Made by a program: the position numbers and the translations under genes
Source of the DNA: a virus
Virus record (IMG/VR): IMGVR_UViG_3300010354_000387
Span: 1-30,104 of that record
Reading direction: 5' to 3' (one strand)
Length of the DNA: 30,104 bases
Notes under the pieces: model-generated
The model's input: the letters and a program-made list of their open reading frames with translations, nothing else
What the model was told of the DNA's origin: nothing
Database searches by the model: none
Shown: piece by piece, positions 5,349 to 22,448 of the stretch
Layout of the letters: every line of letters starts with the position of its first letter
Position numbering within the stretch: the first letter of the stretch is position 1

Positions 5349-6071
5349 TTAGAACGGCAACTCCTCGAGACTGTCTTCAGGAACAAACTTCGGCGCCGCT
5401 GGCGCTTGCTTGGCTAGGAACTCGCGGCTCGGCTTCTCGCGGCACCAGGAGCCATCAGGCGCCTTGTGTGAGGCCGCCCAGAACGGCTGATACGGCTTGC
5501 CAGTCGTCTTGCTCACGCCACCAGGCTTGAGCGTCCAGGCTTCGCCGTGGCTGCAGAACTCGCCGCCGACGTTCTCGGCAAAGAGCATTGCAGCCTTCGC
5601 TGCGAGGATTGCGTCGTCCGAAGCGGTCCCAGACCCCTCCGTAGAATCAACGGAGAGAGGTGTAGGAGCCACGGAGAGGCGCGAAACCCGCCCAAGTGGT
5701 ACTGGGACACCTTTCTCTGGTGAATACAGGCTCCGCCCGACTCCAAGTTGAGCAGCGCAGCGACGGAGTGCGTCGCTCGCGGCGCTCTTTAGCGGTTCGT
5801 CATCCTGGGCGGAATTTGGGTACCCGAAGTCTTGACGAATCGTTGTCTTGCCTTCTACCACCACCACCAGTGAACCGTGGACCACGCCGCGAATTGGGTC
5901 GGCCACCTTTACCTCAAACTGCCAGTTCTCAATGCCAAGCACGTCGTCTAGTCGCTGCGCGACTGCACGAGCGTCGGCATATGTGAACACTAGTCCAGCC
6001 CTCCCAGGACGATGCTTCAGGTCTTTCTCGTCAAATGGCGCCAACAGCGCCTCGCTGATCTTCTTGCTCAT
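5349..6071 (-). CDS. Rad52/22-like single-strand annealing protein with SSB-like tail
   Basis: A 240-residue recombinase that anneals complementary single strands, partner of the YqaJ exonuclease two genes upstream. Residues 15-120 match the Rad52/Rad22 core: LKHRPGRAGLVFTYADAR, RLDDVLGIENWQFEV, GVVHGSLVVVVEGK, then DDEPLKSAASDALRRCAAQLGVGR and LY, the helix-strand end of the annealing fold. The linker 121-170 is flexible. Residues 173-210 carry C-x-H ... H-x7-C (Cys173, His175, His202, Cys210), a possible zinc site. The last residues, EDSLEELPF, resemble the acidic DDDIPF tip of bacterial SSB. The start ATG overlaps the upstream stop (ATGA). Confident in the fold. Confidence 0.85.
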   Translation of the reverse strand: MSKKISEALLAPFDEKDLKHRPGRAGLVFTYADARAVAQRLDDVLGIENWQFEVKVADPIRGVVHGSLVVVVEGKTTIRQDFGYPNSAQDDEPLKSAASDALRRCAAQLGVGRSLYSPEKGVPVPLGRVSRLSVAPTPLSVDSTEGSGTASDDAILAAKAAMLFAENVGGEFCSHGEAWTLKPGGVSKTTGKPYQPFWAASHKAPDGSWCREKPSREFLAKQAPAAPKFVPEDSLEELPF

Positions 6072-6628
6072 TGAACCTCCTCTCCTAGCGGACTCAGTTC
6101 CGCGTAGGTCACGTTATGGCTGACGAACTGCGCCTTCTGGCCGTTCGGGAGTGGATCGCCAATCTCCACCCGCTTCGCTTTGCGAGCCAAATCATCGCCG
6201 CTGATGACGCCGCAGACCCAGCCCACGTCGTAGCGGTGAAGTTTCGGTTCGCTCGACTTCGTATGTCCAGGAGCCAGCCGCAGGCTGACGAACGCATAAT
6301 GCTCTGCGTTCTGCCTTTGGCTGTTGTAGTCGTAGACACTCGCCTCATATTCAGGCCGAGGATCAACGGCTCGCTCCTTCGTCTTGACTTCAACCGTCCC
6401 GCGGTCGGTGTCGTAGTCGTAAAAGATTGACGCTACAAACTCAAACCCGACGCCAAGATTCTCAAGTGCGCGCTCGAAGACCGCCTGACCAACGGCGCCC
6501 TCCCAGACGGCCGCCCTTCCCTTCTGCGAGAGGCTCTTGTCCACCTTCCCAGGCGGGAGAATGTCTTCTCGCTTTGCGATCTCAACCGCACGCTTCAGGA
6601 TCTGATCGTCGATCTGAATGCGTGTCAC
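6068..6628 (-). CDS. PD-(D/E)XK nuclease-like protein
   Basis: A 186-residue protein with motifs of the PD-(D/E)XK superfamily. GAVGQAVFERALENLGV is the first helix with its Glu, YDYDTDRGTVEVKTK gives the Asp and the E-x-K core (Glu80, Lys82), and a long helix-rich C-terminal part contains EHYAFVSLRLA. The family includes restriction enzymes, RecB-like domains and resolvases, and the substrate cannot be read here. Its place between YqaJ exonuclease and the annealase points to recombination or host-DNA breakdown. The GTG start overlaps the exonuclease stop (GTGA). Confidence 0.72.
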   Translation of the reverse strand: MTRIQIDDQILKRAVEIAKREDILPPGKVDKSLSQKGRAAVWEGAVGQAVFERALENLGVGFEFVASIFYDYDTDRGTVEVKTKERAVDPRPEYEASVYDYNSQRQNAEHYAFVSLRLAPGHTKSSEPKLHRYDVGWVCGVISGDDLARKAKRVEIGDPLPNGQKAQFVSHNVTYAELSPLGEEVQ

Positions 6629-7581
6629 GCGCCATCGCCCATCTTGAACCTGAAGACTCTTGCCCCAGCCTTCTCCGCCGTGTGCCGCTTGACGGCCTCG
6701 GCGTAAGTCTCTGGAGCGACTGCCTTCAGCGCATCCGCAACCTTCTCCCAGTCCGTCTTCGCAGAAGCCCGATTCTGTTTCCAGGTTGCTGACCAGCCAG
6801 CGCCCACAAGACCAGCCTTCTCGCCAATCGCCTCCTTGAACCCAATGGCGAGGTTCTGCAACTCCTGATCCAGCAGCCTGGACTCGTACTGCTTCTCCGA
6901 GTAAAGCGACGCCAGCCGCTCAAGTCCAGCATCAGCCTGATTCCACTCTTCGCTCGTCTGCGGCACAACCGCAGCCAGCGCGTCGCTGTCCTCGCCGCTC
7001 AGCGTTGGTGGCGTCTGCGTTGCGAGCAGGTTGCGGAACTCCACCGCCTTGCGATACAGGTTCGTCTGGTATTCCAGATCCGCCTCTACTCGCTCAATGC
7101 GGAAGACCAGGCCACCGAGTAGCGCCGCGACGTCGCACCACGGTGCGCCAGTCACGAACATTTGCCATTGGACTTGTGCCTCAACCTCTGGCGGCACTGG
7201 ATACAGGCTCCAACGCGGTGACGTGCTCGTCTTGATTTCCACCAAGCCGTCCTCGCCCACGATGGTGCGGTCGAGCGACGCCATCACCCACGGCATCTCC
7301 TTGAGTCGGACGATGCCATTGCTGCGACGCAACTCGCGGCCAGTCTCCATCTCGTAGAACTCAGCCACCGTGTTCTCCAGGAGGATGCCCCGAATCGCAG
7401 CAGCGCCCACTGGCTCTGGCGTGTACTTGCCCAACTTCTCTGCGTAAAGTTGATACGGCGTCTTGTACGGCGACAAGCCTGCAATGACTGCAGCCTCCGT
7501 CGCCGTGATGCCTTCCTTGCGAAGCGCGTGCCATTCTGCACTGCGCTGTTCTGCCTTGATGAACTCGTATTGCTTGCTCAC
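6625..7581 (-). CDS. YqaJ-family phage exonuclease/recombinase
   Basis: A 318-residue lambda-exonuclease-type nuclease that resects double-stranded ends to give single strands for annealing. Visible motifs are SAEWHALRKEGITATEAAVIAG and SPYKTPYQLYAEKLG at residues 14-50, RGILLENTVAEFYE with the helix Glu (64-77), then ASLDRTI (Asp104) and GLVEIKTST (Glu115, Lys117), the D-x(n)-E-x-K core, and QVQWQMFVTG with the Gln of the last motif. The C-terminal 120 residues are helical. The GTG start overlaps the zinc-ribbon stop, and its Shine-Dalgarno GGAGG is encoded in that gene's last codons. With the Rad52-like gene it forms a standard two-component recombination pair. Confidence 0.93.
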   Translation of the reverse strand: MSKQYEFIKAEQRSAEWHALRKEGITATEAAVIAGLSPYKTPYQLYAEKLGKYTPEPVGAAAIRGILLENTVAEFYEMETGRELRRSNGIVRLKEMPWVMASLDRTIVGEDGLVEIKTSTSPRWSLYPVPPEVEAQVQWQMFVTGAPWCDVAALLGGLVFRIERVEADLEYQTNLYRKAVEFRNLLATQTPPTLSGEDSDALAAVVPQTSEEWNQADAGLERLASLYSEKQYESRLLDQELQNLAIGFKEAIGEKAGLVGAGWSATWKQNRASAKTDWEKVADALKAVAPETYAEAVKRHTAEKAGARVFRFKMGDGA

Positions 7582-7766
7582 TTGCCCTCCTTCTTACGGT
7601 CTTTCTTTGCGAATCCTTCGCCCTTGTAAACCACTGCCGCTGGCGAATAGATCATCCGCATCCAGCGGCCACACTTCTCGCAACGCGGGTTATAGACCTG
7701 CGTCATCGAGTGCGTGTGCTCTTCACGGTGTCCGCAGTCGCCACAGCGGTACTGGTACGTCGGCAT
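7578..7766 (-). CDS. FmdB-type zinc-ribbon protein, 62 aa
   Basis: A 62-residue protein starting MPTYQYRCGDCGHREE, the hallmark of the FmdB/CxxC-CxxC small zinc-ribbon family. A second pair, CEKCGRWM, completes one zinc site. The tail is basic (FAKKDRKKEGK), partly because it encodes the ribosome site of the next gene. FmdB was named as a putative regulator; the function of phage copies is not established. ATG in a TGATG overlap with the upstream membrane-protein gene. Confidence 0.88.
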   Translation of the reverse strand: MPTYQYRCGDCGHREEHTHSMTQVYNPRCEKCGRWMRMIYSPAAVVYKGEGFAKKDRKKEGK

Positions 7767-7927
7767 CAGCCAGCGACCACAAAGATCACCACCAGCAACC
7801 AGAACCCCAGGACGCCAATGGCAATGTCCGTCAATCGATCAGCACGCTCGCTCTGCTCACCAAGAAACTGCGTCCTGATGCCAACTCGCTTATAGACCTT
7901 TGGCTCGGTCTTTCTGTTGAGTTTCAT
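7766..7927 (-). CDS. Small C-terminally anchored membrane protein, 53 aa
   Basis: Basic and polar N-terminal half (KLNRKTEPKVYKRVGIRTQ, then GEQSERADRL), then one hydrophobic span, IAIGVLGFWLLVVIFVVAG, at the very end. This is a tail-anchored layout with the soluble part likely cytoplasmic. I start it at the ATG at 7927 because that codon overlaps the stop of the preceding 28-codon gene as ATGA; the open frame extends further up but would cover that gene. Function unknown. Confidence 0.6.
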   Translation of the reverse strand: MKLNRKTEPKVYKRVGIRTQFLGEQSERADRLTDIAIGVLGFWLLVVIFVVAG

Positions 7928-8010
7928 CGCATCGACCCCAGTGCCAAGAGCAGCACCATCGCTGCAATGAACGTTGCGACGGCCAAGCCGTCCAGAATGT
8001 ATGCCTTCAC
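7924..8010 (-). CDS. Membrane micropeptide, 28 aa
   Basis: A very short gene starting with GTG at 8010, which overlaps the upstream stop as GTGA, and ending in TGA that overlaps the next ATG as ATGA. Shine-Dalgarno AAGGAGG lies 7 nt before the start. The peptide is one hydrophobic helix with Lys near the start and Arg at the end (YILDGLAVATFIAAMVLLLA at its centre). Perfect fit between two coupled neighbours plus a strong ribosome site make it credible despite its size. It may work with the 53-residue membrane protein encoded next. Confidence 0.6.
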   Translation of the reverse strand: MKAYILDGLAVATFIAAMVLLLALGSMR

Positions 8011-8201
8011 TTTGCAACCTCCTTCTTCTTGAAGGCCACCGCCACGTCCCAGTGACCTTGCTTTGTCAATCTATTGGCGTGCAATTTGCACACAAATAGC
8101 GGCGAGCCAAACGGTTTTGCGACAGTGCCAAACTGCCACGTTCCGATTGCTTGCCGTCCGCACGCATCACGCCAAGTTGCAGTCACAATCTCGCAATTCA
8201 C
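8007..8201 (-). CDS. Small Cys/His zinc-binding protein, 64 aa
   Basis: A protein with Cys3, Cys14 (DACGRQAIG), Cys38 and His41 (FVCKLHANRL), consistent with one zinc site of C...C-x2-H type common in small phage proteins. The GTG at 8201 overlaps the stop of the 35-residue gene (GTGA) and is preceded by AAGGAGG at 7 nt, so it is preferred over an in-frame codon at 8222. The C-terminal KKKEVAK is read from the bases forming the next gene's ribosome site. Function unknown. Confidence 0.62.
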   Translation of the reverse strand: MNCEIVTATWRDACGRQAIGTWQFGTVAKPFGSPLFVCKLHANRLTKQGHWDVAVAFKKKEVAK

Positions 8202-8305
8202 TTTGCAACCTCCTTCGCGCACTTGGCGCAGATTCTCGTGTAGATGTTTGAGTTGTCTTTCGCAACGCGGACAACCTTTCCGCAGTTCCAGCAGTTCGCC
8301 TTCAT
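8198..8305 (-). CDS. Mini zinc-ribbon protein, 35 aa
   Basis: Thirty-five residues with CWNC at 5-8 and CAKC at 26-29, a minimal zinc ribbon of two knuckles and little else. The ATG at 8305 overlaps the upstream stop as TGATG, and the stop overlaps the next GTG as GTGA. Codons for its C-terminal KEVAK also supply the Shine-Dalgarno of the following gene. It is short, but the four cysteines in exact C-x2-C pairs and the tiling support it. Confidence 0.65.
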   Translation of the reverse strand: MKANCWNCGKVVRVAKDNSNIYTRICAKCAKEVAK

Positions 8306-8535
8306 CAGCGCACCGCCTTTCGCACGCAAGGTGCGTAAGTGGCTGGGAAGCCAGTCACAAACTTGCCGTCCGCAACCGTTCCACCCATTCCCTCAGCCGC
8401 AATCTTGGCGCGCAGGGGAGTTGCAAACTCTTCTGTTGGATACTCGCCCTTCGCAATCTCGCTGCAACCTGCGAGATGCACCTGCGCCAGTGACTTGTCT
8501 GACTTTGCCGAGAAGACCGCTACATACCTTTGCAT
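8305..8535 (-). CDS. Hypothetical protein, 76 aa, first gene of the early operon
   Basis: Not recognised. It starts MQRYVAVFSAKSDKSLAQVH and has two cysteines (SGCSE-like AGCSEI and APCVRK) and a Gly-rich segment (GMGGTVADGKF). Predicted soluble. Strong ribosome site TAGGAGGAAACG before the ATG at 8535, about 50 nt after the TTGACA promoter, so it should be the first and most strongly expressed early product. Such first genes in phage operons often act on host functions; that is only inference. Confidence 0.65.
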   Translation of the reverse strand: MQRYVAVFSAKSDKSLAQVHLAGCSEIAKGEYPTEEFATPLRAKIAAEGMGGTVADGKFVTGFPATYAPCVRKAVR

Positions 8536-8590
8536 CGTTTCCTCCTACTTATCGGCCCTGCCGTCTGGCTGGGTTCCTCCCGATGCAACG

Positions 8591-8620
8591 ATCTTACGCC
8601 GTTTCGCAACGGCTTGTCAA
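8591..8620 (-). promoter_or_regulatory. Sigma70-type promoter P1 with overlapping palindromes
   Basis: Minus strand: -35 TTGACA (8615-8620, perfect), 18-nt spacer, -10 TAAGAT (8591-8596). The -35 box is the centre of a perfect 13-nt palindrome GGCTTG-A-CAAGCC (8611-8623). The spacer holds a second inverted repeat GCCGTT-gcga-AACGGC (8598-8613) that abuts it. These look like operator sites for a repressor. It drives the early micro-gene and recombination operon. Confidence 0.75.
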
Positions 8621-8638: not shown

Positions 8639-8672
8639 AAAACCCCCAGGCTGGAGGAGGTCAGCCTGGGGG
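8639..8672 (-). terminator. Rho-independent terminator
   Basis: A perfect 11-bp stem CCCCCAGGCTG/CAGCCTGGGGG (8643-8653 with 8662-8672) with an 8-nt loop, followed on the minus strand by TTTT (8639-8642). It ends the HTH-phosphoesterase-zinc ribbon operon. The stop codon of the zinc-ribbon gene lies within the hairpin. The T tract is short, but the stem is very strong. Confidence 0.8.
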
Positions 8673-8891
8673 GTCGCTGGCTGGGCCAGCGTAGTCATCG
8701 TCCTCGCCTGCGAGGTCCAGGACCACCTCTAGGCAGTCTCGGCAGATCGCGTAGGACAGAACCGCAGAATAGCCTAGCGTCAGGCTGACTTCCTGCTCAC
8801 AGAACTTCCAGACGCGTGCCTCCTCCCCGCACACGGTGCAGATCCCAATCTGCTCTGGCTTGGGAGCAGGAGGACCTGAGAGGAACGGCAT
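8661..8891 (-). CDS. Zinc-ribbon protein, 76 aa
   Basis: Contains CTVC (Cys18, Cys21), a lone Cys31, and CRDC (Cys50, Cys53): two C-x2-C knuckles 28 residues apart, a probable zinc ribbon. The first 16 residues are Pro-rich and the C-terminus acidic (GEDDDYAGPAS). ATG at 8891 in a TGATG overlap with the phosphoesterase gene. Its last codons form one arm of the terminator. Function unknown. Confidence 0.72.
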   Translation of the reverse strand: MPFLSGPPAPKPEQIGICTVCGEEARVWKFCEQEVSLTLGYSAVLSYAICRDCLEVVLDLAGEDDDYAGPASDPPG

Positions 8892-10160: not shown

Positions 10161-10189
10161 AGAATGAAGCCGCCTCAGGAGACTGTCAA
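10161..10189 (-). promoter_or_regulatory. Promoter P2 candidate
   Basis: Minus strand: -35 TTGACA (10184-10189), 17-nt spacer, weak -10 CATTCT (10161-10166). The -35 overlaps the stop of the holin gene. It shares the extended word GGGGCTTGACA with P1, which supports a common regulator or sigma contact. The poor -10 suggests a weak or activator-dependent promoter. Confidence 0.55.
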
Positions 10190-10515
10190 GCCCCCAGTTT
10201 CGCGCGATACACGGCCGCCTCGACCGCGTTGCTGATCTCCTCTTCGTTCAACTTGATCCCACGCTTGGCGCACTCGGCGCGCACCAGGGCAATGGCGGCC
10301 GCCTTCTTCTCCTCGCCAGCCTTCGAGTTCAGCGTCTGGCTGACCGCAGCCACGGTCGCGGAGGCAATCTTCTCCAACATCGCGTAGTGCTCCGTGGCCA
10401 TCCGAGCCTTCAAGTAATTGATCAAGGCATTGGCAAGCCAGCCGAAGGCCCCGATTGCCACTGGCACGAGTGCCACAATAAACGCGTTTACGAGGTCGCT
10501 GTAGAACTGATCCAT
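10186..10515 (-). CDS. LLH-type holin
   Basis: A 109-residue protein with one N-terminal transmembrane helix (FIVALVPVAIGAFGWLANAL) followed by a long charged helical region (YLKARMATEHYAMLEKIASA, then AVAAVSQTL, NSKAGEEKKAAAIALVRAE) and a short C-terminal helix ending KLGA. This matches the layout of phage LL-H holins: one TM plus a coiled-coil-like tail with the GxKKxxA pattern. It would form the membrane hole that lets the endolysin out. Located just after the cysteine peptidase gene, 6 nt away. Confidence 0.8.
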   Translation of the reverse strand: MDQFYSDLVNAFIVALVPVAIGAFGWLANALINYLKARMATEHYAMLEKIASATVAAVSQTLNSKAGEEKKAAAIALVRAECAKRGIKLNEEEISNAVEAAVYRAKLGA

Positions 10516-10521
10516 CTCTCC

Positions 10522-11088
10522 CTACTTTCTATGCACGAGGATCATCGCTGGAGGCGTCGGGAATCCCGCGTTCCCCTTCGAGTCTCGTAGCACCTTTACT
10601 TCTCCAGGCGTAGCAGCCCTTCCAGGCTTGCCCTCCTGCATTGTCGGACAAGCATAGAGCCAGCCGCCGTTCTGATATGCCAACACAACGTAGTGGCCGT
10701 AGGTGGCGAGCGGCTGCTTCTTCCAGTAGCCGCGTTGCCACTTGGAGCGCAGGTGGTCTGGCACAACTTTCTGACTCGCCTGGATGTTGAGGATCAGCGC
10801 CGCGCCATTCTTCACCTGGTTGCTCGCCTCGCTCCAGTCGTAAACCGAACGCGTGTTCAGTCCGAGGATCTTGCCAGCCTTCACCAACTGCGCGGCGGAT
10901 GTCCCCTCGGCGCCAGTCGGCGTGTCCACACGGCCAGCCTGAGCGCAGGCTGAATGCCCCTGCTTCGTAGTCGTCGGGAGTCCGAGGTAGGTTGCAGCCG
11001 TTGCGAGGCTTGCAGGACCGCAGTCGTCCATTGCCTTCACGCCGAGGCGCTCGGCGAGTCCAAGTTGCGAGCGGACGATCAGGTTCAC
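10522..11088 (-). CDS. C39-like cysteine peptidase, putative endolysin
   Basis: A 188-residue papain-fold peptidase candidate that would cut peptide bonds in peptidoglycan. DDCGPASLATAATYLG carries the nucleophile Cys23 on its helix, after a short N-terminal segment as in C39-like proteins. TSAAQLVKAGKILGLNTR fits the second helix-strand pair. YGHYVVLAYQNGGWLYACP carries His132. The third residue, usually Asp in a DP pair, is not evident: the place reads ACPT. There is no cell-wall-binding domain. It lies between an XhlA-like protein and the holin, which supports the lysis role. The GTG start overlaps the stop upstream (GTGA). Confidence 0.75.
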   Translation of the reverse strand: MNLIVRSQLGLAERLGVKAMDDCGPASLATAATYLGLPTTTKQGHSACAQAGRVDTPTGAEGTSAAQLVKAGKILGLNTRSVYDWSEASNQVKNGAALILNIQASQKVVPDHLRSKWQRGYWKKQPLATYGHYVVLAYQNGGWLYACPTMQEGKPGRAATPGEVKVLRDSKGNAGFPTPPAMILVHRK

Positions 11089-19574: not shown

Positions 19575-22448
19575 CTAGATTGAGATGACGAGAACATAGC
19601 CGCCGCCGCCATTTCCACCTGCTCCAGATGTGACGGTCCCAGCAGTTCGCGTTGGGCCACCGCCACCACCGCCACCACCGCCAAGATAGCCATTGCCTCC
19701 GTTCCCAGCATCGGCGTTCACCGCGCCGCCGCCGCCACCGCCGCCAGCGCCAAGTCCATCAGTCGCAGAAGATGCTGCGCCACCCCCTGCAGTCCCGCCA
19801 GAAGCCACGGTGCTGTCAATCCCGAAACCTCGAGCACCAGCACCTCCGACGTATGAGGCCCCCGTGTCGGAGAGACCACCACCGCCACCGCCACCAGTTC
19901 TAGTCATCGCGCGGATTGCTGCGTATCCAGCGATAGAACCCCGCCCAACGGAGAGGTGATTTGAGTAGTTTGCTGCTGTTGTAGCAGAGAAGATTTTTGC
20001 GGTGCCTGGCTCATCTGACGTGCGAATCCCAGAATCGGCAGTGTCGTCAAGTGATCTTTGACCCCACTCGGCAACCCCAATGCCAGTTTGAGCGTTTCCT
20101 GATGTCCACCCAGCCCCATACCCTCCAAGCGCAACGGCTGCAGTTCCAAACGAAGTCTGACCACCATTAGCACCAGCCAGTCCGCTTAGGTTCGCGGAGT
20201 CAGAAGTCACTGCACTTCCGCCTACTCCGCCGCTTCCGATGGTCACCGTCACTGTCCCTGGGAGCGCCGAGGCGTTGATCCATCTCCAGACGTGAGCACC
20301 GCCGCCACCACCAGCACCACCAATTGTGTTGCTAGTCGTGATCTGTCCGCTTGCACCGCCGCCACCAGCGCCGATTGCTAGAACGTAAACCGCGCTCTTT
20401 CCAGCAGGCTTGATCCAAGATCCGCTACTAGTGAACTCCTGGAAATCAGCCGCAGCAGCCGTCAATGTTGTCCAGGATGGAAGGCCAGCAGACACTGAGA
20501 GAACTTGGCCTGCTGTTCCGATTGAGAGCGTGGAAGCAGTGCCGACTCCACCGCCGTATAGGATTGAGCCAGTGCTTGTGAACGCAGCGAGCGGCACTGC
20601 GTTGATTGCGGTTGCCGTTCCAGCCGTATCAACCCAGACATCGCCAGTATTTGGCGTGCTCGGCTGCGCCGTTCCGACAGTGACTTGCGCCTTTGATCCT
20701 GCAAGGTCGTAGGTTGTCTTGACTGAGTTCGGCACTGCGGCCGTCGTCGTAGAGGTCGAGGAGGTTGAATCCTCAAGCGTGGTGACGCCGTACACGCCAG
20801 CCGTTGTTGCGGTTCCAACTGCGGCAACTGGAGTTGTCCACTCAGGCACGCCGCCTGCTGAGACGCTCAAGACCTGCGCGGCTGTACCAATGCCGAGACG
20901 CGTGATCGTGGCTGACCCGCTTGCGTACAGGATGTCACCTGCTGCTGTCGCTGTTGCCTTTGGAATCGCCGTCCCTGCGGTTGTGTTTGCAGTGTTGGCA
21001 AGATCGTAGGCAGACTTGACCGAGTTTGGAACAGCAGCCGTTGTGGTGCTCGTGCTGGAGGTTGAATCCTCAAGTTGAACTGCGCCCCTGACCAGATTTG
21101 TCGCGTCGGCAACTGAGATGACTGGAGCCGTGCCGCCTGTTGACGAGATCGCGCCAGTCCCTGCAACCGACGCCACCTTGCCAGCAGCAAGGTCGTATGC
21201 CGACTTCACGCTCGCAGGTGTCGCCGCAGTCGTTGTGCTCGTGGACGAAGTCGAGTCGGTGAGTGTGGTGACACCGTAGGTGCCAGTCGTATTCGCCGTC
21301 CCGATTGCGGCTGGCGTCGTCCACTCAGGAGCGCCGAGCGCGCTCACGCTGAGGATCTGCGCCGCAGTCCCGATGCCGAGTCGCGTGACGGTTGCCGAGC
21401 CTGACGCGTAGATCAGGTCTCCTGCGGCAGTCACCGTATTCTTCGGGATGGCAGTGCCAGCCGTGGTGTTAGCCGTATTCGCCAAGTCGTATGCCGACTT
21501 CACTGAGTTCGGAACCGCCGCCGTGGTTGTGCTTGTGCTAGATGTCGAGTCTTCCAACTGCACCGCGCCGACCACGCTTGTGGTGGCTGCAGCCACTGAG
21601 ATAACAGGCGCAGTTCCGCCAGTAGAGGAGATGGCACCAGTGCCAGCGACAGAGGCGACCTTGCCTGCGGCGAGGTCATACGCGCTCTTGACGCTGTTCG
21701 GTGTTGCCGCCTTCGTCGTAGACGTTGACGAGGTTGAGTCCTCAAGTTGCACGGCACCGCTCTGCGTGGTGCTGGCTGCGTCAATGGAGACTGTTGCCGT
21801 GCCGCTCGTCGTAGACGCGTTGATCGGTGACGTGCCGACGACTACGGTTGCAGTGCCACCGCCGCCAGTCTGATCAACCCACTGCGTGTTGTAGTTGGTC
21901 GAGTCAATCTTGGCGAGGACTTGCCCAGCGGTTCCGCCAGTCGGAACGCCAGTCCCTGCTGGCCCAGTTGCTCCAGTGGCGCCAGTCGCACCAGTCTCGC
22001 CTGTATCGCCGCGCGGAATCGAGAAGTCAAAGATTGCGGCGCCAGATGTGCCAACGTTTGTGACGGTGGCATTTGAGCCAGCCGTCCCAGTGGTGACAGT
22101 GCCGACGGTGATTGTCGCGGCTGATCCAGCAGCACCAGTGGCGCCAGTTGCGCCTGTGTCGCCAGTGTCGCCCTTATCGCCCTTGTCTCCCTTGACAAGC
22201 ACAAAGTCAAAGACTGCTGCAGAGGATGAGCCACTGTTTGTGACCGAGACGGCAGTTCCTTGCGTGACCGTTCCAACAGCAATCGTCGCAGCCGAACCCG
22301 CTGGACCTGCTGAACCTGCTGGACCTGTTGCACCTGCTGGACCTGTTGGACCTTGCGCGCCCGCAGGCCCTGGTGCCTGCACCGTGATCTCGGTGCGCGT
22401 ATCGTTGATCGCAATGATCTGCGTGGTCAGTTCAACCTCAACGCTCAT
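19575..22448 (-). CDS. Large collagen-like and glycine-rich tail fibre, copy 1
   Basis: A 957-residue fibre, the largest gene here. Residues 1-25 are the N-terminal adapter. Collagen-like Gly-x-y stretches occupy about 27-52, 87-109 and 147-166 (for example GPAGAQGPTGPAGATGPAG). Between them are strand-rich spacers that share an AxxFDFxxxxGD pattern. Residues 235-585 hold five copies of the tail-fibre repeat LxDSTSSTSTTTAAxPxSVK, two of which belong to a 161-residue tandem duplication. Residues 665-957 are the Gly-rich adhesin domain, starting FQEFTSSGSWIKPAGKSAVY and ending GYVLVISI. A trimeric fibre with a receptor-binding tip is likely. ATGA overlap with the upstream gene. Confidence 0.85.
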   Translation of the reverse strand: MSVEVELTTQIIAINDTRTEITVQAPGPAGAQGPTGPAGATGPAGSAGPAGSAATIAVGTVTQGTAVSVTNSGSSSAAVFDFVLVKGDKGDKGDTGDTGATGATGAAGSAATITVGTVTTGTAGSNATVTNVGTSGAAIFDFSIPRGDTGETGATGATGATGPAGTGVPTGGTAGQVLAKIDSTNYNTQWVDQTGGGGTATVVVGTSPINASTTSGTATVSIDAASTTQSGAVQLEDSTSSTSTTKAATPNSVKSAYDLAAGKVASVAGTGAISSTGGTAPVISVAAATTSVVGAVQLEDSTSSTSTTTAAVPNSVKSAYDLANTANTTAGTAIPKNTVTAAGDLIYASGSATVTRLGIGTAAQILSVSALGAPEWTTPAAIGTANTTGTYGVTTLTDSTSSTSTTTAATPASVKSAYDLAAGKVASVAGTGAISSTGGTAPVISVADATNLVRGAVQLEDSTSSTSTTTAAVPNSVKSAYDLANTANTTAGTAIPKATATAAGDILYASGSATITRLGIGTAAQVLSVSAGGVPEWTTPVAAVGTATTAGVYGVTTLEDSTSSTSTTTAAVPNSVKTTYDLAGSKAQVTVGTAQPSTPNTGDVWVDTAGTATAINAVPLAAFTSTGSILYGGGVGTASTLSIGTAGQVLSVSAGLPSWTTLTAAAADFQEFTSSGSWIKPAGKSAVYVLAIGAGGGGASGQITTSNTIGGAGGGGGAHVWRWINASALPGTVTVTIGSGGVGGSAVTSDSANLSGLAGANGGQTSFGTAAVALGGYGAGWTSGNAQTGIGVAEWGQRSLDDTADSGIRTSDEPGTAKIFSATTAANYSNHLSVGRGSIAGYAAIRAMTRTGGGGGGGLSDTGASYVGGAGARGFGIDSTVASGGTAGGGAASSATDGLGAGGGGGGGAVNADAGNGGNGYLGGGGGGGGGPTRTAGTVTSGAGGNGGGGYVLVISI
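20776..21747 (-). repeat. 161-codon tandem repeat inside the fibre gene
   Basis: Two tandem units of about 483 nt, each containing two tail-fibre repeats, a VASVAGTGAISSTGGTAPVI block and an AIPKxTxTAAGDxxYASGSA block. Repeat starts fall near residues 235, 396 and 558 (and 298, 459). The proteins are almost identical between units, but codons differ at many third positions. Confidence 0.75.

Follow-up and report, generated by a model that had tools for sequence, protein, structure and literature searches.

Overlapping micro-genes at the head of a phage recombination operon form a probable island of exchangeable cassettes

Layout of the micro-gene operon

The window analysed in this study, that is, the whole stretch of DNA, is a virus record of 30,104 bases. 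Its large terminase is nearest to that of Pontimonas phage phiPsal1 (MG835450; 45% identity), the closest cultured relative, so an actinobacterial host is likely; the source is an uncultured tailed phage, probably of actinobacteria. A DNA search of the micro-gene region against cultured phages gave no match. A scan of bacterial and archaeal genomes revealed no relatives of the exonuclease encoded downstream, and therefore no prophage or host can be named. A preliminary description had claimed a chain of five micro-genes of 76, 35, 64, 28 and 53 codons with 1- or 4-nt overlaps, preceded by a promoter. The chain was recovered as claimed, at 8535-7766 on the minus strand, and the promoter is present. 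The chain also extends past its fifth gene, with g6 and the exonuclease gene attached through 1- and 4-nt overlaps. The features, in the direction of transcription, are as follows.

8643-8672, minus strand: intrinsic terminator ending the upstream transcript; 11-pair stem (9 G-C), then TTTT
8591-8620, minus strand: promoter of the micro-gene operon, TTGACA-18-TAAGAT; 10/12 consensus match, adjoining the terminator
8551-8584, minus strand: structured 5' leader of 34 bases; stem ATCGG/CCGAT, internal loop GAGGAA, inner hairpin CCCAGCC-AGAC-GGCAGGG
8305-8535, minus strand: g1, 76 aa; ATG start with AGGAGG 5 nt upstream
8303-8315, minus strand: joint J1, the 13-mer CGGTGCGCTGATG; degenerate Shine-Dalgarno, g1 stop and g2 start
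8198-8305, minus strand: g2, 35 aa; TGATG joint with g1
8007-8201, minus strand: g3, 64 aa; GTG start
7924-8010, minus strand: g4, 28 aa; GTG start
7766-7927, minus strand: g5, 53 aa; ATGA joint
7578-7766, minus strand: g6, 62 aa; zinc ribbon of the FmdB family, sixth in the chain
6625-7581, minus strand: YqaJ/lambda-type recombination exonuclease, 318 aa; PF09588 1.1e-26, TIGR03033 1e-37, phrog_434 5e-62
6068-6628, minus strand: 186 aa protein, function unassigned; 4-nt overlap with the exonuclease gene
5349-6071, minus strand: Rad52/22-family single-strand annealing protein, 240 aa; PF04098 1.1e-11

The promoter is the sole one of its type in the window, and nearly all relatives have such a promoter at the equivalent position; that of the window is presumably early in timing. 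The leader that follows the promoter has a single copy on the coding strand of the window, and in relatives it is virtually confined to the equivalent site, where the same shape is formed by 15 distinct outer-helix and 12 distinct inner-helix sequences. A MAFFT alignment did not bring the leader helices into register; for this reason, the leaders were scored singly against shuffles and not by column-wise covariation. The shape was matched by 0 or 1 of 60 shuffles for each fitting leader; z was -2.2 when the window leader was taken alone, and five other leaders scored between -1.7 and -4.1. Some divergent leaders, such as those of loci L019 and L049, have a different hairpin, and a comparison of the leader with Rfam gave no credible match. 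The simplest role for the element would be that of a 5'-end mRNA stabiliser; an antitermination signal or a protein site is also possible.

Conservation and variable content

Relatives from IMG/VR were collected through the exonuclease (66 loci) and through the neighbouring phosphoesterase (80 kept from 202 relatives), giving a comparison set of 82 distinct complete phosphoesterase-to-exonuclease regions. Genes in these regions were called by an automatic chain finder, which also reports some spurious ORFs in the leaders. Conservation of the short frames had been set beforehand as the refutation test of the preliminary description. Every frame proved to be intact in relatives, and silent changes are in excess, which denotes purifying selection. 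Between the window and named relatives, pN/pS was 0.32 for g1, 0.08-0.19 for g2, 0.16 for g3, 0.40-0.53 for g4, 0.09-0.12 for g5 and 0.10-0.14 for g6; the pooled dN/dS of unsaturated pairs was 0.48 for g2, 0.37 for g4, 0.42 for g5 and 0.17 for g6. The weakest single-pair case is g4 (third-position excess, p 0.06-0.15); its length holds at 27-28 codons over 41 different protein sequences, drawn from 69 of the 82 loci. By these comparisons, the description withstood the refutation test, and the five micro-genes are genuine coding genes. That they are spurious short ORFs within a non-coding leader region, an idea favoured by the lengths of g2 and g4, which lie below usual annotation limits, is extremely improbable and was dropped as refuted by the conservation tests, given the excess of silent changes, the fixed lengths across relatives and the strong ribosome-binding sites of g1, g3 and g4. 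The g6 copy of L065 appears to be frame-shifted (53 aa, 8-nt overlap) while that of its close relative L061 is intact, which may reflect decay or an assembly error.

The six genes fall into two classes of occupancy. The core genes are g4, g5 and g6, found in 69, 76 and 77 of the 82 loci; the accessory genes g1, g2 and g3 occur in 2, 8 and 3. The region lies between conserved flanks: the phosphoesterase is 94-96% identical to the window copy in many relatives, and across the whole locus set the distance from there to the exonuclease varies between 769 and 3522 bp. Accessory genes belong to 58 families and make up 53 distinct contents among 78 loci. Locus pairs whose phosphoesterase DNA is 93-97% identical have a mean Jaccard index of 0.19 for their accessory genes, and 62% of them share none. 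The other cassettes include many that encode cysteine-rich candidate zinc proteins, and a C5-cytosine methyltransferase (PF00145, 3.9e-56) is an alternative cassette in 16 loci. Read in this way across the relatives, the region is a modular cassette island, a point that the earlier reading had missed. The methyltransferase gene is added as a further cassette between g6 and the exonuclease gene (for example, L008 856-1986 and L010 3328-5004); its length is 319-558 aa, with the Pfam match limited to the N-terminal ~168 residues and a remainder that varies.

The traits claimed for the individual proteins fit the sequences. By motif pattern, the two proposed zinc-binding proteins are g2, which is zinc-knuckle-like (CxxC...CxxC, with all four cysteines kept in 5 of 5 distinct g2 sequences), and g3, whose C...C...CxxH pattern is invariant in 10 members and whose C-terminus, KEVAK followed by the stop, is a built-in AAGGAGG. 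Against known zinc-finger families, g2 stayed under the Pfam gathering threshold (best Zn_ribbon_3, 17.6 vs 27 bits). The two single-helix membrane proteins are g4, a peptide of 28 aa, and g5, which has a basic N-terminus and a C-terminal membrane helix. The presumed lysis genes, for an LL-H-type holin (PF09682) and a C39-like peptidase, lie elsewhere in the window (10186-10515 and 10522-11088, minus strand), so a holin role need not fall to g4 or g5. The g1 protein occupies a hypervariable first slot and has the pattern H-x3-C ... C ... AVR in common with other slot-1 proteins. The description of the genes as unrecognised mostly holds: g1, g3, g4 and g5 matched nothing in Pfam, PHROG or NCBIfam, and family searches with g1-g5 and 35 other cassettes gave almost nothing above noise. 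AlphaFold models of g1 and g3 were of low confidence (mean pLDDT 65 and 66) and had no Foldseek match at E<=0.001, and neither protein has sequence relatives in the PDB. The sixth protein, g6, belongs to the FmdB zinc-ribbon family (TIGR02605 6.5e-12, 45.3 bits vs a cut-off of 31.3) and also passes the cut-off of PF09723 (4.4e-10, 39.9 vs 34.4 bits).

Where g4 is absent, a non-homologous membrane peptide of 31-47 residues usually takes its place, and a short membrane peptide is present in 79 of the 82 loci; in L008, one of the three loci without one, a g4-like peptide is hidden by a wrong start call. The replacements are of four mutually non-homologous types: C14 (L058, L130, L237, L244 and L248), C29 (L054 and L055), C67 (L255) and C37 (L089). 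The presence of four unrelated peptides at the g4 position suggests a conserved role for a one-helix peptide there.

Joints between cassettes and their exchange

Among 423 joints, 406 are 4- or 1-nt overlaps. The ATGA/GTGA or TGATG overlaps and the internal Shine-Dalgarno sites have the arrangement of a ninR-type chain. Inner cassettes often close with KE[AGV]K and the stop, which in frame is AAGGAGG, and most inner joints contain AGGAGG or AAGGAGG; thus, each inner cassette supplies the ribosome-binding site of its successor within its own last codons. Joints of inner genes resemble AAGGAGGNNAARTGA. The joint at the end of the first slot, J1, is exact after 18 upstream and ahead of 10 downstream families, in 30 of the 82 loci (31 copies), and near-variants end several more families, raising the total to 24. 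No further copy was found on either strand of 650,676 bases, and the window holds one copy. A 15-base J1 pattern was also searched in viral contigs, where 21 of the 120 listed stretches carry a gene of the operon, as expected for a short pattern. The tail of J1 reads (A)-V-R-stop, and its invariance extends to the spacer CGC, a mismatched C and silent positions. Some of the 18 families that end in J1 may be distant homologues; g1, C17 and C49 share H-x3-C...C. First-slot genes can also be stacked, two in L031 and three in L089, each ending in J1 or a variant.

Exchanges of single cassettes can be read directly in pairs of relatives. The C28 gene is 97% identical between L040 and L216, and the identity begins at the start codon and ends at the joint ATG; the corresponding values are 0.59 for the leader, 0.52 for the next gene and 0.68 for the phosphoesterase. 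The C17 genes of L049, L053 and L222 are 90-94% identical with near-random flanks, and g2 of the window is 88% identical to that of L252 with unrelated neighbours on either side, marking it as a mobile cassette. Filled and empty sites were found in four pairs. In L023 vs L064, one cassette is inserted between two copies of AAGGAGGCA, which form direct repeats; in L042 vs L247, one is inserted at the start codon; a third pair is L212/L207; and in the fourth, L003 has the order g1-g3-g4-g5-g6, the same as the window but without g2. The short identical sequence expected of boundary sequences is present at junctions of exchanged unrelated genes, and the shared homology at the 5' edge of the swaps is short, about 6-15 bp. 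By genome comparison, these cases show single cassettes moving between divergent genomes, with edges at Shine-Dalgarno/start-stop joints.

We consider it likely that the region is an island of joint-bordered cassettes at the head of a recombination operon, most likely exchanged by short-homology annealing. The single promoter and the structured leader would drive the whole island, and each cassette would be one small ORF carrying the ribosome-binding site of the next gene in its last codons. The joints are standard, CGGTGCGCTGATG after first-slot genes and AAGGAGGNNAARTGA-like after inner genes; swap, insertion, loss and stacking of cassettes would therefore keep expression. Translation of the cassettes is probably strictly coupled, in view of the overlaps found here and of experiments on such pairs elsewhere, in which ATGA and TGATG gene pairs are usually strictly coupled (PMC6728339). 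Exchange most likely proceeds by short-homology strand annealing at the joints, and may be aided by the exonuclease and Rad52-family annealase that the phage itself encodes further down the operon. Annealing at ribosome-binding joints appears to be the best mechanism because these two enzymes share the operon. It is also suggested by the joint homology, together with published work showing that Rad52-like phage recombinases act in a relaxed manner, tolerating divergence and driving mosaicism (PMC3945230). The comparisons themselves do not directly distinguish the process, which could be annealing, RecA, or illegitimate recombination with selection.

The main rival explanation, which we regard as unlikely, is that selection alone accounts for the joints: these would be optimised reinitiation signals, and illegitimate arrivals would survive only if they are in frame and well coupled, so that the joints look standard without being recombination sites. 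J1 does hold a near-complete Shine-Dalgarno and a TGATG overlap, and its part AAGGCGGTG pairs at 8 of 9 positions with the anti-Shine-Dalgarno, so selection for translation could keep J1 without recombination there; the same reading suits the AGGAGG or AAGGAGG at most inner joints. Phage mosaicism is, moreover, usually put down to illegitimate recombination, since no boundary sequences are found at most mosaic junctions (PMC3029335). However, J1 is identical behind 18 unrelated genes even at bases outside the rRNA pairing and at the third positions of A-V-R. Coupling needs no exact tail copies, as the variants of L195 and L217 suggest, and the cassette inserted in L023/L064 is bordered by direct joint repeats. 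An integron-like, site-specific cassette system with J1 as the site of a dedicated integrase would account for the unit of one gene plus one identical 3' site, the tandem cassettes of L031 and L089 and the precision of filled and empty sites; it is nevertheless very improbable, as J1 lacks inverted-repeat arms, contains the coding start of the next gene and varies in some loci, the 5' edges are without J1, and no such recombinase is present among the operon genes searched. Membership among integrons was rejected, with no attC-type arms in J1 and no tyrosine integrase among the operon genes searched.

Possible functions and known systems

The preliminary description proposed a host-takeover or anti-defence role, in which the five proteins would act early against host defences; this proposal is compatible with the cassette reading and stands in part. 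It is a possible function, on balance doubtful. The chain sits directly behind the promoter, its first slot is hypervariable, and the methyltransferase is interchangeable as a cassette; this support is circumstantial. In contrast, the near-universal occupancy of g4, g5 and g6 resembles that of core functions and is unlike that of usual host-specific anti-defence genes, and the early timing is a presumption. Searches of the chain genes and other cassettes gave no matches to defence-related families, and PADLOC was unconvincing, with one weak match (E 0.013) among the 35 other cassettes. The hypervariable first slot could perhaps carry host-interaction functions, including anti-defence, and g4, g5 and g6 might perform a core membrane or transcription-linked role; both suggestions are of low confidence. 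More tentatively still than the cassette reading, the locus may be pictured as a dedicated plug-in expression site of uncultured actinophages, in which a promoter and RNA leader serve a fixed-flanked slot, the micro-genes supply their own coupling signal, the annealase and exonuclease from the same transcript swap cassettes at the joints during co-infection and the slot acts as a reservoir of small anti-host proteins.

Among known systems, the nearest in kind are the ninR region of lambda and the boundary sequences of lambdoid phages, reportedly described by Kroger and Hobom in 1982 and by Clark in 2001. Both systems share with the island a chain of small genes with start/stop overlaps and ribosome-binding sites inside the preceding gene, and exchange proposed at short conserved gene boundaries. 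The genes themselves are unrelated to those of ninR, and the present array heads a recombination operon; here, in addition, an exact 13-mer follows 18 unrelated genes and sharp-edged swaps are visible. The island appears to work like the ninR and boundary-sequence systems but differs in the recurrence of J1 and the visible swaps. The boundary-sequence idea is quoted in PMC3029335.

The start-associated sequence (SAS) of Cluster K mycobacteriophages is a 13-bp element, GGGATAGGAGCCC, with 11-19 copies per genome (PMC3203893). Like it, J1 is asymmetric and 13 bp long, overlaps a ribosome-binding site, adjoins the starts of non-structural genes and has some conserved bases that lie outside the rRNA pairing (PMC3203893). 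Unlike GGGATAGGAGCCC, J1 has another sequence, is usually present in one copy per locus and ends one interchangeable slot. J1 was rejected as a member of the SAS family on sequence (CGGTGCGCTGATG) and copy number and can be called SAS-like in action. The promoter early stem-loop (PeSL) cassettes of T4-type phages were reportedly described by Arbiol in 2010 and Comeau in 2014. PeSLs place an early promoter and a stem-loop beside small interchangeable genes and are dispersed and repeated. A promoter with a stem-loop lies beside small interchangeable genes here too; unlike PeSLs, the promoter and leader form a single unit in each genome, and the joints in common are translational ones that lie between genes. 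In phiPsal1 (L070 18869-19708), four small genes lie just before a lambda-type exonuclease gene; by eye, at least two of them have membrane helices. No copy of J1 was found in phiPsal1, and tblastn searches of g2, g3 and g5 against phage records found nothing.

Whether phage mosaics arise through boundary sequences or through blind illegitimate recombination is an old dispute. Since an exact 13-mer ends 18 unrelated genes and sharp swaps can be read, the dispute becomes directly testable at this locus. The island would offer a natural site for plugging in new viral functions in a phage group that is widespread and poorly cultured, and it provides a handle for mining, in that any ORF ending in J1 behind the leader is a candidate new small effector. 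It also argues that phage genes of 28-35 codons, which annotation omits, are real.

Two other genes of the window were noted. After the phosphoesterase gene, 8661-8891 (minus strand) encodes a 76-aa cysteine-containing protein that is conserved in relatives and shows a weak, sub-threshold resemblance to Gin, an anti-sigma-G family (E 0.0012; 19.2 vs 27 bits). At 19575-22448 (minus strand), a 957-aa tail-type protein contains collagen-like G-x-y stretches and long repeats.
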